A stretch of DNA of 64,000 bases, from assembly GCF_000403435.2 (NCBI RefSeq), contig NZ_KE159703.1:1171033-1235032 (forward strand), given 5' to 3'. A program made the position numbers and the translations under genes. Below, in pieces: positions 13,387 to 34,819 of the stretch. Source of the stretch: Oscillibacter sp. 1-3 (GTDB lineage: Bacteria; Bacillota; Clostridia; Oscillospirales; Oscillospiraceae). The notes beneath the pieces were generated by a model that searched no databases, was not told where the DNA came from, and was given only the letters and a program-made list of their open reading frames with translations. Position 1 is the first letter of the stretch. Each line of letters begins with the position of its first letter.

Positions 13387-14817
13387 TTAAAGCGCCTTTA
13401 GAATCCTGCGAATCAGTTTGTCCGCCGTTCCCACGGAGGTGATGCTCAAATTCTCCCGCGGGGAATGCGGATCGTTCAGCTCCGGTCCATAGGAGATGGC
13501 GTCCGTAAATCCGAGCTGCTCCATGAGAATTCCGCATTCAAGTCCACCGTGGAGAATTTTGAACGACGCGGGAGACCCGGTAACAGCCTGATAGGCCTCC
13601 ATGGCCAGCGTACGAATGGGAGATGCGCGCCGGAATTCCCATCCTGGATAGAAATCCGCCTCCTCCAGCTCTGCGCTGCATAAGCCGGCGAGTATACGCA
13701 GCTGAGGAAGGAGCCAGGAGGTAAGATGCGCAGGGATTGTGCTGCGGACGCTGCAGCGGACGGCCAGGCAATCGTTTTCCACACGGCAGGAACCGATGTT
13801 CATGGAGGTCACGGTAAAATCCATAGCGTGGTCCCGAGCCAAAACTCCGTTGGGAAGCAGTATGAGAAATTGCTTGACGCAGGCAGTGGAGGCAGAAGTC
13901 ATTCTGAGCGCCTCGGGTTCGGAGCTGGTAATACAGATCTCCAGTTCTGGGTCCACAGATTCATATTCCCGCCGCAGAGCGTCGTTTTGCTGTGCGATCT
14001 GGCTGTGAAGCGCGGATATATCTGCGCAGCTCAGTACGGCGTATGCATTGCGGGCAATTGCGTTATCCTTGCCGCCGCCTCCCATGGAAATCAGCCGCCA
14101 CTCCGCAGTCAGATTGTTTAGAACACGTGCCAACACCTGATTGGCGTTTGCGCGGCCAAGGTGGATCTCAGCGCCGGAATGGCCGCCCAAAAGGCCGCGC
14201 ACATCGATGCGGAAGCAAGGGTCCGCATTGCTTTCCCGCTCAATAGGGATACGGAAGACCGTGCGGCCGCCGCCGGCCGCGCCGGCAATAAAAACGCCTT
14301 CCCAGCCGCTGTCGAGATTGATTAGGGTTTTTGACTCGAATGCCCAGCCGGAGCTGGACAGCTGCCGGGCGCCGGTCATACCGGCCTCTTCCCCGGCGGT
14401 AAAGAGGACTTCCAATGGAGGGTGCTCGGCATTGGGATCGTCCAGAACAGCCATAATGAGGGAGACACCGATTCCGTTATCGGCGCCGAGTGTGGTGCCG
14501 TCCGCGACAAGGTATCCGTCACGGACTTGAATGGAGATGGGGTCGCTTTGAAAATCATGAGCGGACTCCGGTGTTTTTTCGCAGACCATATCCAGATGAG
14601 CCTGCAAAAGAATCGGGGGATGATTCTCTTTTCCTGGAGAGGCGGCCTTCTTTATAAAAACATTATTTGCAGAGTCCCTTTCCGCAAACAGATTTCTGGC
14701 GGACGCCCATGAAATCATGTGCGCTGCAATTGCCGCCTCGTTGCCGGAACCGCGGGGAATTGCGGAAATCTCCTCAAAAAATGAAAATACAGCCTGAGGC
14801 TCCAACGATAATGCCAT
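13387..14817 (-). CDS. pepD: Xaa-His dipeptidase (aminoacyl-histidine dipeptidase)
   Basis: 476 residues from the ATG at 14817, which has an AGGAAAGGAG site; the longer frame would begin inside the promoter palindrome. M20/M28-type zinc ligands are all present: LQAHLDMVCEK (His74, Asp76), LGADNGIG (Asp113), FTAGEEAGMTGA (Glu143-144). Length and order match PepD, which splits carnosine-like and other dipeptides in the cytoplasm. It is transcribed from the leftward half of the sigma-54 palindrome with a leader of roughly 40 nt and stands alone, so dipeptide cleavage is wired to the same signal as the transporter and M24 peptidase on the other side. Confidence 0.92.
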   Translation of the reverse strand: MALSLEPQAVFSFFEEISAIPRGSGNEAAIAAHMISWASARNLFAERDSANNVFIKKAASPGKENHPPILLQAHLDMVCEKTPESAHDFQSDPISIQVRDGYLVADGTTLGADNGIGVSLIMAVLDDPNAEHPPLEVLFTAGEEAGMTGARQLSSSGWAFESKTLINLDSGWEGVFIAGAAGGGRTVFRIPIERESNADPCFRIDVRGLLGGHSGAEIHLGRANANQVLARVLNNLTAEWRLISMGGGGKDNAIARNAYAVLSCADISALHSQIAQQNDALRREYESVDPELEICITSSEPEALRMTSASTACVKQFLILLPNGVLARDHAMDFTVTSMNIGSCRVENDCLAVRCSVRSTIPAHLTSWLLPQLRILAGLCSAELEEADFYPGWEFRRASPIRTLAMEAYQAVTGSPASFKILHGGLECGILMEQLGFTDAISYGPELNDPHSPRENLSITSVGTADKLIRRILKAL

Positions 14818-14860
14818 ATCGATACTCCTTTCCTGACTGAGCGGGGCGCCCAATAAGCGC

Positions 14861-14912
14861 ATATGAGCAAGAAACGCGCCAATATTAATATTGGCGCGTT
14901 TCTTGCTCATAT
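14861..14912. promoter_or_regulatory. Perfect 52-bp palindrome with divergent sigma-54 promoters
   Basis: Two 26-bp arms with no loop, identical by eye at every position. Rightwards it contains TGGCGC-GTTTC-TTGCT (14892-14907), the -24/-12 spacing of sigma-54 promoters (GG-N10-GC); by symmetry the same promoter faces left. The centre is GCCAATATTAATATTGGC. Expected starts are about 14917 (DUF819 operon) and 14856 (pepD). The same upstream box occurs at 17965-17995 and, inverted, at 32452-32483. Confidence 0.85.
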
Positions 14913-15006
14913 ATCCTTCAGCCGAATGAGTGTCTTTTGAAAATGCGGAGCACCGTTGGCAAAATAACTGAGGGCAAGTCCTTCAACAAAAAGGAGAAGA
15001 GAGAAA

Positions 15007-16164
15007 ATGATTACAACGGGTGTGGGCTTCTTGGCGTTTATCACGTTTTATACGGCCATAATTCTATGGCTGGCACGGAAATACCCACTAAAACTTTACA
15101 AAGTATTTCCGCCCATTCTGATGATCTATCTGCTGACGATGGTGCTTTTTACCTGCGGCGCATGGACAATGACGGAATCCATCACCGCGACAAAAACAGC
15201 GTTGGTTAACAACATGGTTCCCTGCATGGTATTTTTGATGTGCCTGAACTGCAATGTCAAGAGCATCTTGAAGCTGGGGCCGAAACTGTTGGCGGGCTTT
15301 TTCTGCGCGACCGCTACCATCTGCCTTGGATTCGTGGTTTCCTATCTGCTGTTTGGCCGCGCTTTGGGCTTCCCCGCAGCCGAGTTCGGCGCGGTGTGCG
15401 CTTCCTGGGTTGGCGGCATCCAGAACTTCCTGGCGGTCAAACAGTCCATGAATGTCCCTGACTCTGTGATGTCCAATATCATTTTGATGATTAATATCAA
15501 CTATTCCTTCTGGATCATGATTCTGGTGGCAATGTCTTCCCTGGCCCCCCGATTCAACAAGTGGACCAAGGCGGACGTGGCACAGATCCACGAGATTTCC
15601 CGCAGACTGGAAGAAGATGAGACAGAGGAGAGCGGCAGGATTGATAGTCTGAGCGTTTTGATGGTAATTGGCATCGGTCTGATGGTTGTGGCAATTTCCA
15701 GATTTGCAGCTGTCAAAATGCCCACCATTGCGTTTATCAACGCCAGTGTTTGGGAATACGTCCTTGTCAGCATTGCCGGCCTGGCATTGGGGGTGACCAG
15801 GCTGGGCGGACTCCGCGGGGCAAACCTGGTTTCCGATGTGATGCTGACTCTGGTCATGACCCTGCTGGCAACCGAGCTCAATCTCCTGCAGATTGCGGAC
15901 GCATGGCTCTATATCGCTGCCGGCGCAGTGGTACTGATCGTTCACGCGGTTTTGTATATTCTGCTGGCAAAGGTGTTCAGGCTGGATTTGCACACCTGCG
16001 GCACCGCGTCTATTGCCAATGTCGGCGGTCATTCGTCCGCCCCCATTATTGCGGCCACCTATCATCGCTCCTATGTGTCGATCTCTGTCATTATGTCCAC
16101 GGTGGGATGTGTGACCGGTACCTTTATTGGTCTGCTTGTCTCCCAGCTGCTGGCAATGCTCTAA
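15007..16164 (+). CDS. DUF819 (YjcL-like) membrane transporter
   Basis: 385 residues with about ten hydrophobic spans and a cytoplasmic loop near 190-210 (KADVAQIHEISRRLEEDETEESGR). The family pattern includes MVPCMVFLMCLNCN, FGAVCASWVGGIQNFLAVKQ and CGTASIANVGGHSSAPIIAATYH near the end. DUF819 proteins are secondary carriers of unknown substrate. AAGGAG precedes the ATG. It is the first gene of the rightward sigma-54 unit and is followed by a peptidase, so import of a dipeptide or amino acid derivative is a reasonable guess (inference). Confidence 0.85.
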   Translation: MITTGVGFLAFITFYTAIILWLARKYPLKLYKVFPPILMIYLLTMVLFTCGAWTMTESITATKTALVNNMVPCMVFLMCLNCNVKSILKLGPKLLAGFFCATATICLGFVVSYLLFGRALGFPAAEFGAVCASWVGGIQNFLAVKQSMNVPDSVMSNIILMININYSFWIMILVAMSSLAPRFNKWTKADVAQIHEISRRLEEDETEESGRIDSLSVLMVIGIGLMVVAISRFAAVKMPTIAFINASVWEYVLVSIAGLALGVTRLGGLRGANLVSDVMLTLVMTLLATELNLLQIADAWLYIAAGAVVLIVHAVLYILLAKVFRLDLHTCGTASIANVGGHSSAPIIAATYHRSYVSISVIMSTVGCVTGTFIGLLVSQLLAML

Positions 16165-16178
16165 ACTGCAAGCGGCTT

Positions 16179-16868
16179 ATGTACGAAGACGAAAAAGTTT
16201 TCGGAGTCCGGTATGCTCAGCGCCATGCCGAGCGTGCCATTTCCGAGATGGAGCAGTATCTGCGGCCCGGAATAACGGAGCGGCAGGCGGCCGCGAGGCT
16301 GAAAGAACTCTGCGCAAATATCCCCGGCGTGGAGCAAGCGCTCACGGATATGGTGATTTCCGGGCCCAACAGCGCAGAATATCACAATTTTGCCTCGGAC
16401 CGTGTGATTGGCAGAGGAGAACTGATCCTGATCGATTTCAGCATCGTGGTCAATGGCTGGTACAGTGATATGACCCGGATGTTCTCGCTGGGCGAGCCGG
16501 AACCGGAGGCACGGCGCATTTGCGGCATTGTCGCTGCGGCCAAGGAGCGGGCTGCGGCCGCGGCGTATCCTGGTGCGCCGGCCTCGGCTCTGCACCGGGA
16601 AGCCGCCGGAATTATCGAAAACCACGGATACGGGAACTGTTTTCCCCATGGACTTGGTCATGGAATCGGCCGTGAGATGCACGAACCGCTCCGGCTGAAT
16701 GAGGAGAGCCGGGACTGTCTGACACCGGGAACGGCATTCTCCATAGAACCGGGAATTTACCTCCCGGGACGTTTCGGAGCACGGCTTGAGGATCTTTACT
16801 ATATGAGCGGGGAGGGGATCGTCTGCTTGAATGAAAGACCGGCAGTCCTGAAAATATTGCCTGTATAA
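16179..16868 (+). CDS. M24-family metallopeptidase (Xaa-Pro peptidase type)
   Basis: 229 residues from the ATG at 16179; the reading frame is open further upstream but lies in the transporter gene. All five metal ligands of the pita-bread fold are present: LIDFSIVVNGWYSDMTRMF (Asp86, Asp97), HGLGHGIGREMHEP (His161), FSIEPGIY (Glu190), ARLEDLYY (Glu204), with His69 as a substrate-site residue. The N-terminal creatinase-like domain of prolidases is absent, so the size is that of a methionine aminopeptidase, but PGxxxxAL and HEP features are prolidase-like. No strong ribosome site; coupling to the transporter is likely. Confidence 0.88.
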   Translation: MYEDEKVFGVRYAQRHAERAISEMEQYLRPGITERQAAARLKELCANIPGVEQALTDMVISGPNSAEYHNFASDRVIGRGELILIDFSIVVNGWYSDMTRMFSLGEPEPEARRICGIVAAAKERAAAAAYPGAPASALHREAAGIIENHGYGNCFPHGLGHGIGREMHEPLRLNEESRDCLTPGTAFSIEPGIYLPGRFGARLEDLYYMSGEGIVCLNERPAVLKILPV

Positions 16869-17329: not shown

Positions 17330-17800
17330 ATGAGCAGTATGGAAGAATTAAAACGCATGGATGAGGCGGAACAGCGGGGACGGGAATATTTTCGCCAGGG
17401 CCTGAATTGTACGGAGTGCGTTTTGCGCACATTCATGGATATGCACGAGACAGAGCTTCCCGATTCTGTTGTGAAGCTGGCTTCCGGCTTTGGACTTGGC
17501 ATAGGAAATACGAGAAACACCTGCGGCGCCGTTATCGGAGCGATCATGGCGCTGGGTGCTGCAAAAGGGAGAGACCCCCTCCCAATCGGGACGCCTGCCG
17601 AGCGGATCGCCCAGCTGAACGAAGAGGTATATCCCCCTGCCGGTTCCTTAATACATGAGGTTGAGCGGGACTTTGGGACGATTATCTGCAGGGAATTCAG
17701 CGCGCCGCACGGTGATTTTGACGGCCGTATGAGAAAGAAAGGCTGTCAGCAGTTTATCGGCTATTGCTGCCGTTTGGCTGAAAAATATAGCGCAGATTGA
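17330..17800 (+). CDS. C_GCAxxG_C_C family protein (first copy)
   Basis: 156 residues from the ATG that follows AAGGAGAG. The family pattern is visible: an early cysteine (GLNCTECVLRTF), the helix ASGFGLGIGNTRNTCGAVIGAIMALGA with the glycine-cysteine core, a later Cys (FGTIICREF) and CC near the end (FIGYCCRLAEKY). These proteins are thought to be redox-active or to bind metal or FeS; function is not established. It closes the DUF819 operon, and a paralogue (18062-18592) opens the next one. Confidence 0.85.
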   Translation: MSSMEELKRMDEAEQRGREYFRQGLNCTECVLRTFMDMHETELPDSVVKLASGFGLGIGNTRNTCGAVIGAIMALGAAKGRDPLPIGTPAERIAQLNEEVYPPAGSLIHEVERDFGTIICREFSAPHGDFDGRMRKKGCQQFIGYCCRLAEKYSAD

Positions 17801-17856
17801 TTGTCACAGAAGAGATTGCCCAATCAGATTATCCGCAGACGAATACAGATCTTTTT

Positions 17857-17895
17857 GCCTCAGGCAGCACGGCTTCACACCACGCTGCCTGAGGC
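17857..17895 (+). terminator. Inverted repeat after the first C_GCAxxG gene
   Basis: Perfect 12-bp arms GCCTCAGGCAGC / GCTGCCTGAGGC with a 15-nt loop, 57 bp after the stop codon and followed by GCTTATTA. A terminator is the simplest reading. It also lies 85-125 bp upstream of a sigma-54 promoter, the usual place of an activator site, so it could be both. Confidence 0.6.
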
Positions 17896-17964
17896 GCTTA
17901 TTATGCCGGCCGGAGCGGGGGCGGCCTCCCCTGGGACATGCGGCTGAACTTCGCGCGGAATATA

Positions 17965-17995
17965 GCCAGATATTAATATTGGCACAGTCTTTGCT
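17965..17995 (+). promoter_or_regulatory. Sigma-54 promoter of the CoA/redox operon
   Basis: TGGCAC (17980-17985), AGTCT, TTGCT (17991-17995): an almost ideal -24/-12 promoter. It is preceded by GCC-AG-ATATTAATATTGGC, the same box as in the 52-bp palindrome. Predicted start near 18006, about 55 nt before the second C_GCAxxG gene. Confidence 0.85.
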
Positions 17996-18012
17996 ATTGT
18001 AAAAGACTGTGC
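17982..18012 (+). promoter_or_regulatory. Dyad overlapping the sigma-54 promoter
   Basis: GCACAGTCTTT and AAAGACTGTGC form perfect 11-bp arms around a 9-nt spacer. The dyad runs from the -24 box past the expected start point, so a protein bound here would compete with RNA polymerase. It may also be a hairpin at the very start of the transcript. Confidence 0.5.
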
Positions 18013-18061
18013 AACAGATGCAAAAGAGATCTCAAAACGGTATTTTAAGGAGGATATTGTT

Positions 18062-18592
18062 ATGGAAAACACCAACACCGTGAGCAAAAAAGAGGCCTGC
18101 AGAAACGAGCTTGTCCAGCGTGCCGGAGAACTGGCCATGTACTATTACCGCGAGAAAGGCTTTCACTGCCCCGAAGCGACAATCCGCGCCTGCTCCGATG
18201 CGCTGGATCTCCGGATTCCTGAGGATGTGATTCGCGCCGCGTCCGGCTTTATGGGCGGCGGCGGCGGTATGGGAGAGCGCTGCGGCGTCGTGGAGGCCGG
18301 CTGCATGATTCTCTCGTTCATCTTTGCCCGTGTGGCCCCCTTTCAGGAGCCCTGGCCCAATAATCATCTGATCCGTGTGATGCATGGCCGTTTTGTGGAG
18401 AAAATCTCCTGCCTGCGCTGTGCCGATATTCAGGCCAAAGAGGAGGCGGAGGGAATCGCTCCCGAAAAGATGTGCGACCGCACCATTGCGGAGGGCGCCA
18501 AAATCATTGCCGGTGTGATCTTTGACTCGGACGATATTTTCAAGGCCGTCACACCCGCGGATTATGAAAACGACCCGAAGCCCTTTGAATAA
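18062..18592 (+). CDS. C_GCAxxG_C_C family protein (second copy)
   Basis: 176 residues, longer than the first copy. Core motifs: HCPEATIRACSDAL, AASGFMGGGGGMGERCGVVEAGCMILSFIF, then KISCLRCADIQ and EKMCDRTIAEGAKIIAG, so the full set of cysteines is present. The ATG follows a GGAGG site. It is the first gene behind the sigma-54 promoter and lies 28 bp before a CoA-disulfide-reductase-like flavoprotein, which supports a thiol/redox role (inference). Confidence 0.87.
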   Translation: MENTNTVSKKEACRNELVQRAGELAMYYYREKGFHCPEATIRACSDALDLRIPEDVIRAASGFMGGGGGMGERCGVVEAGCMILSFIFARVAPFQEPWPNNHLIRVMHGRFVEKISCLRCADIQAKEEAEGIAPEKMCDRTIAEGAKIIAGVIFDSDDIFKAVTPADYENDPKPFE

Positions 18593-32451: not shown

Positions 32452-32483
32452 AGCAAAAAATCTGCCAATATGAATATTACGGC
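32452..32483 (-). promoter_or_regulatory. Sigma-54 promoter of the MmgE/TRAP operon
   Basis: On the minus strand TGGCAG, 5 bp (ATTTT), TTGCT gives the GG-N10-GC spacing of sigma-54 promoters. Directly upstream is ATATTCATATTGGC with GCC further out, the third example of the box found at 14861-14912 and 17965-17995. Expected start near 32441, about 47 nt before the MmgE/PrpD ATG. Confidence 0.8.
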
Positions 32484-33487: not shown

Positions 33488-34819
33488 ATGGAAAATAACA
33501 ATAAATTATCAAGGCGGGAGCGCGTATACCAGCAGTTGTCTGAACTGACACAGCAGATTACGCTCAAACGCATCAACAGCGCTGACTTCCGGGAATATGA
33601 CGCTGCCGGCATCGGAAAGTGTTTGAATATCACTATGAATAACACCTGTATGGAGTTGAACGCGCTGGTAAAAGACGGTCTCGTAGTGAAAATTTTAGGA
33701 CGTCCGGTCTATTTCTTTGCCAAGGAGGATTTGGAAAAGGTTACCGGCGTTAACGTCTCTCAATGTATTTGGGAAAATTACGCCCAATTTAAGGAGGCCC
33801 TCAATGCGCCGGAGCCCCCATATGCGGAGGGAAAATATCAGCGGCCGGAGGCGGACAGCCGCAGGCAGCCGTTACTGGGCAAAAGCTTTGCCGGCTTTGT
33901 TGGCGCGGATCAGAGTTTGAAAAAGTGCATTGACCAGGCAAAATCGGCTATTTTGTATCCGCCGAATGGTTTGCATACGCTGATTACCGGCGAAACAGGA
34001 ACCGGCAAGTCGCATTTTGCGGAGGCGATGTATGACTTTGCCGTGGAAACAGGCCTTTTGGACAGCGGCGCAAAGTTCGTGATCTACAATTGCGCCAGTT
34101 ATTCTGAAAATCCGCAGCTGCTTCTCTCTCAGCTTTTCGGCTATAAAAAGGGGGCGTTTACCGGCGCGGACAAGGATACGCCCGGAATCATCGACCAGGC
34201 GGATGGCGGCGTCCTGTTTCTGGATGAGGCCCACCGGTTATCTCCGGAGGGACAGGAAAAAATGTTTTTGCTGATCGACAAGGGAATTTTTCAGCGCCTC
34301 GGCGAGACCCGGGATTACCGGCGGGCAAAAATCCGAATTATCGCAGCGACCACAGAAGATCCCCAAAACGCGCTGCTGTCTACGTTTTTGCGGCGCATAG
34401 CGGTAGCAATCAATATTCCTCCCCTGGAAAAACGAAGTTTTGATGAACGGATACAGTTTGTGTTTCGTTTTTTGTGGGAAGAGTCCGAAAATATCGGAAA
34501 ACCGTTCTGCGTAGATCTGGAGGTTATAAAGGCGCTGACTCTATACAAGTGTCAGGGAAATATCGGACAAATCCGGGGAGATATACGCTGCCTCTGTGCC
34601 AGCGCCTATTTGGACTATTATTGTCAAGATCCCAAGGCGGAACAAGTGGTGATCGAGCTGACACATCTGCCGGACAGCGTAGAGCGCGGATTATGTGAGG
34701 TGTCTTTTTCAGGAAACGCTCTATTCCGGCGATATGTGTTTTATCAAAATCCTTTTACCATTGTGGATGCGGCCAAAGGCGACTATGAAAGTCTGGTATG
34801 TCAAATTGCAGACGTCTAG
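33488..34819 (+). CDS. LevR-like sigma-54-dependent activator, 3' end lost to a repeat element
   Basis: 443 residues. N-terminal winged helix (about 8-80), then a sigma-54 AAA+ domain (about 130-390): Walker A GETGTGKS (168-175), the sigma-54-contact loop GAFTGA (222-227), Walker B VLFLDE (242-247). LevR/ManR-type activators normally continue with PTS-EIIA-like and PRD sensor domains. Here the reading stops at TAG in CTAGGCC, the exact border of repeat copy 2, so the sensor part is gone. The truncated protein might still be active, even constitutively, since AAA+ and DNA-binding parts remain. Target: probably the sigma-54 promoters nearby. Confidence 0.85.
   Translation: MENNNKLSRRERVYQQLSELTQQITLKRINSADFREYDAAGIGKCLNITMNNTCMELNALVKDGLVVKILGRPVYFFAKEDLEKVTGVNVSQCIWENYAQFKEALNAPEPPYAEGKYQRPEADSRRQPLLGKSFAGFVGADQSLKKCIDQAKSAILYPPNGLHTLITGETGTGKSHFAEAMYDFAVETGLLDSGAKFVIYNCASYSENPQLLLSQLFGYKKGAFTGADKDTPGIIDQADGGVLFLDEAHRLSPEGQEKMFLLIDKGIFQRLGETRDYRRAKIRIIAATTEDPQNALLSTFLRRIAVAINIPPLEKRSFDERIQFVFRFLWEESENIGKPFCVDLEVIKALTLYKCQGNIGQIRGDIRCLCASAYLDYYCQDPKAEQVVIELTHLPDSVERGLCEVSFSGNALFRRYVFYQNPFTIVDAAKGDYESLVCQIADV

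Follow-up and report, generated by a model that had tools for sequence, protein, structure and literature searches.

Divergent sigma-54-dependent promoters were reportedly described by Lutz et al. in 1990 for the hydrogenase-3 cluster of E. coli. Further examples are zraP/zraSR and the VnfA1 targets Avin_02430/02450 of Azotobacter (PMC4987338, PMC9542535; partial texts). For bidirectional sigma-70 promoters, Warman, Grainger and co-workers reported that sequence symmetry gives rise to divergent transcription and that the two polymerases are mutually exclusive (PMC12825309, partial text); the words sigma54, RpoN and sigma factor are absent from the main text of that work. Template switching, also called quasipalindrome correction, makes the arms of inverted repeats identical (PMC8604942, PMC7202029; partial texts). 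In the main text of two sigma-54 surveys (PMC6615313 and PMC12316311), no word starts with "divergent" or "palindrom", and in the literature searched, which was covered in part, we recognised no description of a palindromic sigma-54 promoter pair. Here, we analyse a palindrome that, as judged from its sequence, is probably a mirror-symmetric form of the divergent arrangement already known for sigma-54 promoters.

A perfect palindrome with two sigma-54-type cores

The window, that is the whole 64-kb stretch of DNA analysed, carries a 52-bp palindrome at positions 14861-14912. As originally predicted, it is perfect and spacerless: its arms (14861-14886 and 14887-14912, 26 nt each) are 100% complementary with 0 nt between them. 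No other perfect palindrome in the window exceeds 16 bp, and one of this size lies far beyond chance: from base composition, only ~2e-11 perfect palindromes with a length of 52 bp or more are expected in the 64 kb. A dispersed repeat or the end of a mobile element was also considered and rejected, since a search of the assembled genome (12 contigs, ~95% complete, 4,467,686 bases) with 22 arm bases revealed no second copy of the arm at up to three mismatches.

Each arm reads TTGGCGCGTTTCTTGCT, i.e. GG-N10-GC, which corresponds to the predicted TGGCGC-N5-TTGCT. The rightward core is located at 14891-14907 on the plus strand (GG at 14893-14894, GC at 14905-14906), and the leftward core, identical in sequence, at 14866-14882 on the minus strand. 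For comparison, the sigma-54 motif in print for Clostridiales is TTGGCATNNNNNTTGCT (PMC6615313, partial text). Both arms conform to the core type TGGCAC-N5-TTGCW, their single departure from the best core being an A to G change (TGGCGC). The identity of the 26-bp arms extends beyond the core consensus to the bases of the N5 spacer. The centre of the palindrome is formed by an AT-rich, self-complementary upstream element, ATATTAATAT (14882-14891), which is common to both arms.

In sigma-54 promoters, the C of the GC element is counted as position -12. By this rule, transcription is predicted to start at ~14918 on the plus and at ~14855 on the minus strand, that is 63 bp apart, with predicted leaders of 89 and 38 bases, respectively, and with the palindrome spanning positions -6 to ~-57 relative to these starts. 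The palindrome would consequently be part of neither transcript, and the mRNA hairpin envisaged in the original prediction is not expected. A sigma-54 closed complex covers approximately positions -34 to -5. The footprints on the two arms would thus overlap by a few bases, making it likely that one polymerase is accommodated at a time. A scan of positions 14500-15300 for sigma-70 promoters, requiring a -10 plus a -35 element, returned three matches as compared to 1.0 expected, all of them outside the palindrome.

The genes on either side are arranged as anticipated, with pepD starting leftward and the DUF819-M24 genes rightward from the palindrome. Behind the leftward arm lies a gene for a pepD-like aminoacyl-histidine (beta-Ala-His) dipeptidase of 476 aa (13387-14817, minus strand; TIGR01893, 452 bits, cut-off 344). 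Its best start is 14817, which is preceded by AGGAAAGGAG, and TIGR01893 aligns from residue 5 of this version; a 507-aa open reading frame reaching into the palindrome (14910) represents the pepD frame extended upstream. The first gene behind the rightward arm encodes a DUF819 membrane protein (15007-16164, plus strand; PF05684, 258 bits), whose start is preceded by AAAGGAG, and is followed by a gene for an M24 metallopeptidase (16179-16868, plus strand). The starts of pepD and of the DUF819 gene both possess a ribosome-binding site, and none of the genes flanking the palindrome is a regulator.

Rarity of the pattern, rpoN and candidate activators

The genome encodes one rpoN (PF04552, 177.6 bits, cut-off 22.8, E 4e-52) and yields ten strong matches to enhancer-binding activators (EBPs), none of which adjoins the palindrome. 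The strict pattern TTGGCRCRNNNNTTGCW occurs five times in the 4,467,686 bases, as compared to 0 matches for the reversed control. Two of these matches are the arms of the palindrome, one is located at 17979 on the plus strand and the remaining two reside on other contigs within ~1 kb of an EBP gene. Within the genus, the strict form is present in 71 of 86 genomes, mostly with one to few matches each, while the reversed control is mostly, though not always, 0. Allowing one mismatch in a looser pattern produced seven matches in the window versus 4.0 expected, which is no clear enrichment, and the case for sigma-54 therefore rests on the strict form. Taken together, the exact spacing in both arms, the rarity of the strict pattern in the genome and the presence of a single rpoN bear out the prediction of two sigma-54 cores placed back to back.

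The two arms belong to a local family of four promoter-like sites. ATATTNATATTGGCRNNNNNNTTGCW, which comprises the core plus the upstream element, has four exact matches in the genome, all of them in the window: both arms, 17979 on the plus strand and 32452 on the minus strand. With up to three mismatches, two more genomic sites were retrieved (2 and 3 mismatches), as compared to one for the reversed control. A search of the window with ATATTAATATTGG, allowing one mismatch, returned the same four places versus 0.04 expected. The upstream-extended core ATATTNATATTGGC fits the four sites without mismatch and fits none outside the window; the upstream extension is missing from the two strict matches on other contigs. 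The third site, TTGGCACAGTCTTTGCT (17979-17995, plus strand), shares the upstream element and is followed by two genes, one encoding a C_GCAxxG_C_C protein and the other being CoA-disulfide-reductase-like. The fourth, TTGGCAGATTTTTTGCT (32452-32468, minus strand), has nearly the same upstream element and precedes an MmgE/PrpD-family gene; further along the same strand, an octopine-dehydrogenase-like gene is found together with TRAP-transporter genes.

The third site lies between two consecutive genes for C_GCAxxG_C_C redox proteins (17330-18592), the second of which could be the first gene of a separate operon. An 11-bp perfect inverted repeat, GCACAGTCTTT, with a 9-base loop (17982-18012) overlaps the -12 element and the predicted start region of this site, and a 12-bp inverted repeat (17857-17895) is present upstream of it.

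The EBP gene nearest to the palindrome, at a distance of 18.6 kb, is a candidate for the regulator of the promoter cluster (33488-34819, plus strand). Its product resembles the first 370 of the 938 residues of DagR and lacks the DagR C-terminal region. The gene retains the sigma-54-interaction AAA+ domain with its GAFTGA motif and stops short of the portion that would correspond to the DagR C-terminus; on its 3' side, the same strand contains just short open frames (up to 102 aa) as far as ~35.5 kb. An enhancer site of the type TGT-N10-12-ACA was absent from the four stretches searched near the palindrome and the other two promoters. Two 9-base words, GCCTGAGGC and GCGCTTATT, are common to 14700-14862 and 17800-17978.

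Back-to-back sigma-54 pairs in other genomes

A scan of related genomes upstream of pepD orthologues, as suggested along with the original prediction, turned out to be uninformative. Searches for DUF819 in 86 genomes of the genus (8 matching at E 1e-40, own included) and for pepD in 300 genomes of the family, few of which belong to the same genus (10 matching at E 1e-100, own included), provided no close orthologue. At the 17 loci with distant homologues (31-44% identity) that were obtained outside our own genome, flanks of up to 1.5 kb contained no sigma-54-like site by the pattern used. Thus, no conservation argument can be made for the palindrome locus.

We also searched for outward-facing sigma-54 cores 2-32 bases apart, which are present in 5 of 300 family genomes, own included. 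A scan of the class for the paired pattern returned one of 393 genomes, i.e. our own, and the reversed-pattern control also hit one genome. Among the five family sites, the window palindrome and the loci L024 and L027 form inverted repeats that are perfect throughout, N5 spacer included, while at L023 and L025 five and one of six variable positions are matched, respectively. A public genome collection yielded 101 loci with back-to-back sigma-54 cores, and here L097 is the same site as L024 and L068 the same as L025. The pairs at L024/L097 and L027 are located between genes for a short-chain dehydrogenase and an acetyl-CoA hydrolase/transferase, and an EBP gene adjoins the dehydrogenase gene; the gene families of this junction were tested on L097, and the EBP of L027 is an edge fragment known by likeness. 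The junction occurs in 2 of 400 family genomes. At L127, a Massilibacillus MAG, a perfect pair separates a ketopantoate-hydroxymethyltransferase gene from an HMGL-like one, and an EBP gene is found at a distance of 2.5 kb. The mirrored pairs that are perfect, are flanked by divergent genes and have an EBP gene within 2.5 kb are thus L097 (=L024), L027 and L127, and as L097 and L027 are homologous, the independent cases number three at most, the window included.

Ten of the 101 loci are fully symmetric. In addition to L097 and L127, these are L082 and L115 beside glnK-type genes and six loci in other or undecided contexts, several of them at gene ends (L065, L088, L089, L101, L118 and L125). 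An EBP motif was detected by script in 6 of 104 loci, among them L068, where it accompanies an asymmetric pair. The automatic flag "divergent" (64 of 104) overcalls by accepting any open frame of ~95 codons and was not used as a count. At L101 (325-362), from a Spartobacteria MAG, a perfect sigma-54-like palindrome is found 40 bases before a gene that by eye is rpoN-like; it stands behind a gene on the same strand and may be either a terminator or an autoregulatory site. At L074 (1882-1932), from Paenibacillus, a sigma-54 pair is located between genes for proline dehydrogenase and aldehyde dehydrogenase. Its inner arms of 13 bp enclose a 7-base loop and its spacers differ, i.e. the symmetry is confined to the inner part; the pair at L046, a like junction, is not symmetric.

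Controls on symmetry and a concerted spacer change

Of the 101 loci, 37 belong to one or the other of two junctions that recur in proteobacteria. At the more frequent one (25 loci), the arms lie between YQAYQ-type (PHA-depolymerase-like) and SSKNY-type (GST-like) genes, as identified by eye, and none of the 25 pairs is fully matched. This junction includes L029, L033, L037, L041 and L059 and occurs mostly in Betaproteobacteria and Bradyrhizobium; a full-text literature search for PHA depolymerase in combination with sigma-54 found no paper. The other junction (12 loci: L031, L034, L038, L042, L045, L055, L067, L076, L081, L082, L084 and L115), hosted by Reyranella and other Rhodospirillales-type records, lies beside a gene that by eye is GlnK-type. 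Here, two pairs are fully matched versus 0.41 expected from arm shuffling (P 0.04), and the mean arm match shows no excess. Back-to-back sigma-54 pairs consequently need not be symmetric. The contrast that the original prediction drew with ordinary divergent pairs, which were taken to be two separate sequences, stands in part: tight back-to-back placement is not unusual (37/101 loci), whereas identity of the spacer bases is.

Arm shuffling was also applied to a hand-picked set of 11 mostly Firmicutes loci (the window, L097, L027, L127, L023, L068, L074, L046, L043, L087 and L094; L097 and L027 are homologous). Four pairs of this set are fully matched versus 0.37 expected (P 0.0002), and without the window three versus 0.30 (P 0.0009). 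The other 56 loci are of mixed character, hairpins at gene ends among them, and here full matches are in excess too, with six versus 0.18 expected. When 300 family genomes were scanned with the wrong spacing (N6 for N5), four matches with two perfect hairpins were obtained (L148, and L150 between gene ends), as compared to five and three, respectively, with the right spacing. These numbers are so close that counts alone do not separate N5 from N6. The hairpin background is thus real, and true pairs are identified by the orientation of the genes and a nearby EBP gene rather than by symmetry; symmetry as proof is ruled out by the wrong-spacing hairpins and by hairpins in unrelated contexts.

Further information is provided by the pair of homologous loci. 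L024 and L027 encode coenzyme A-transferases that share 83% identity. In both arms, the junction reads GTTGGCAC-CTGAT-TTGC at L024 and GTTGGCAC-GGCTT-TTGC at L027, that is four of the five spacer bases differ between the loci, identically in both arms, and in the alignment little else is shared between the arms and the genes. Either the arms have repeatedly been made alike by template switching or matched arms have been selected. The inner-only symmetry of L074 and the asymmetric pair at L046 would suit a patchy homogenisation. Among the loci compared in this respect, the gaps measure 9-22 bases in fully symmetric pairs versus 20-32 in other pairs, although the numbers are small.

Alternative explanations

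It is conceivable that one arm alone works as a sigma-54 promoter and that the other one, a by-product of a local inverted duplication, drives nothing useful. One promoter could have seeded a fold-back copy, given that the self-complementary ATATTAATAT also precedes the single promoters at 17979 and, with one base changed, at 32452, and that the 17979 site overlaps an 11-bp inverted repeat as well. However, each side of the palindrome has its own divergent gene, whose ribosome-binding site is fittingly spaced, and mirrored pairs recur between divergent genes elsewhere, which makes a single working arm unlikely. Another possibility is that the palindrome serves as the operator of a dimeric transcription factor, either a repressor or an activator acting at the AT-rich centre, and that its likeness to sigma-54 promoters is incidental or secondary. 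The exact -24/-12 spacing in both arms, the rarity of the motif genome-wide, the extension shared with two other sigma-54-like sites and the lack of regulators among the neighbouring genes all speak against an operator and render it decidedly improbable, even though operators are usually palindromic and located between divergent genes and the core ATATTAATAT is a palindrome by itself. In Desulfovibrio, an AT-rich palindromic EBP site has indeed been predicted, but upstream of the promoter (PMC4641369, partial text).

A bidirectional terminator or another RNA hairpin would account for the fact that the 140 bases around the palindrome are predicted to fold strongly (z ~ -8), and some perfect matches of the same pattern elsewhere are found at gene ends. 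The palindrome, however, is located between the starts rather than the ends of genes and outside both predicted transcripts. It contains no terminator-like site, neither arm is followed by a T run, and at gathering scores Rfam matched two tRNAs only in the whole window and nothing at the palindrome; we therefore deem an RNA hairpin very improbable. Equally little weight is given to an artefact of assembly or amplification, with one arm being a fold-back copy made in vitro. Errors of this kind do produce perfect spacerless palindromes, and no close relative was found for comparison, but the palindrome sits inside a 1.3-Mb contig, its arms stop at 26 bp with ordinary genes continuing on both sides, and similar mirrored pairs are present in other assemblies.

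Discussion

We favour, with a probability of roughly 0.7, the interpretation that the palindrome consists of a single sigma-54 promoter unit plus its mirror image, together serving pepD and the DUF819-M24 genes. Each arm would provide a complete -24/-12 core and share the AT-rich centre ATATTAATAT with the other one. Sigma-54 RNA polymerase would bind to either arm as a closed complex, which would then be melted by an EBP, the leftward arm directing transcription of pepD and the rightward arm that of the DUF819-M24 genes. In this manner, a dipeptidase, a putative transporter and a peptidase may answer one signal. As the cores stand back to back and their predicted starts are separated by 63 bp, binding of two holoenzymes would probably be mutually exclusive. 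The balance between left and right, which the original prediction took to be equal by virtue of the symmetry, may instead be set by the position of the enhancer. The symmetry probably originated from nascent DNA that folded back at the self-complementary centre, thereby copying one arm onto the other through template switching, and both copies may have been kept because both were useful.

A broader view, which is tentative and appears doubtful at present, would regard mirror-symmetric sigma-54 pairs as a distinct two-way switch whose arms evolve in concert, even the spacer bases beyond the -24/-12 consensus remaining identical, either through repeated template switching or because matched strength is selected for. 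Each holoenzyme would be dealt singly to one side or the other, with the EBP setting the balance, and at the locus studied here ATATTNATATTGGC would mark four promoters within 18 kb as a regulon of their own. The concerted spacer difference between L024 and L027 would be a rare instance of promoters evolving through homogenisation of their arms. Closed complexes of sigma-54 polymerase stay on the DNA until an activator acts on them, and a mirrored pair would therefore offer a clean natural test of competition between identical promoters, in which the enhancer and the downstream context alone should decide which side fires.

Compared with known systems, the palindrome resembles zraP/zraSR and the Azotobacter VnfA1 targets in that sigma-54 promoters firing in opposite directions would share one intergenic region. 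Unlike those pairs, which are not described as one palindrome in the partial texts at hand, the cores in the window abut and are identical base for base. The phaZ-like/GST-like and glnK-type pairs of proteobacteria (genes named by eye; 25 and 12 of the 101 loci, respectively) have the same geometry as the pair in the window, but their arms are mostly unlike each other, whereas those in the window are identical. Bidirectional sigma-70 promoters use one shared symmetric -10 element for both strands, and their starts are most often 18 bp apart (PMC12825309, partial text), within a range of ~10-23 bp. In the palindrome, by contrast, two whole sigma-54 cores are mirrored, the predicted starts are 63 bp apart and an EBP would be needed. 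Finally, quasipalindrome correction is a mutational process that equalises arms (PMC8604942, PMC7202029; partial texts), and its tie to sigma-54 promoters is one that we infer here. Divergent sigma-54 promoters as such are already known; what is unusual about this locus is the mirror symmetry, which includes the spacer bases.
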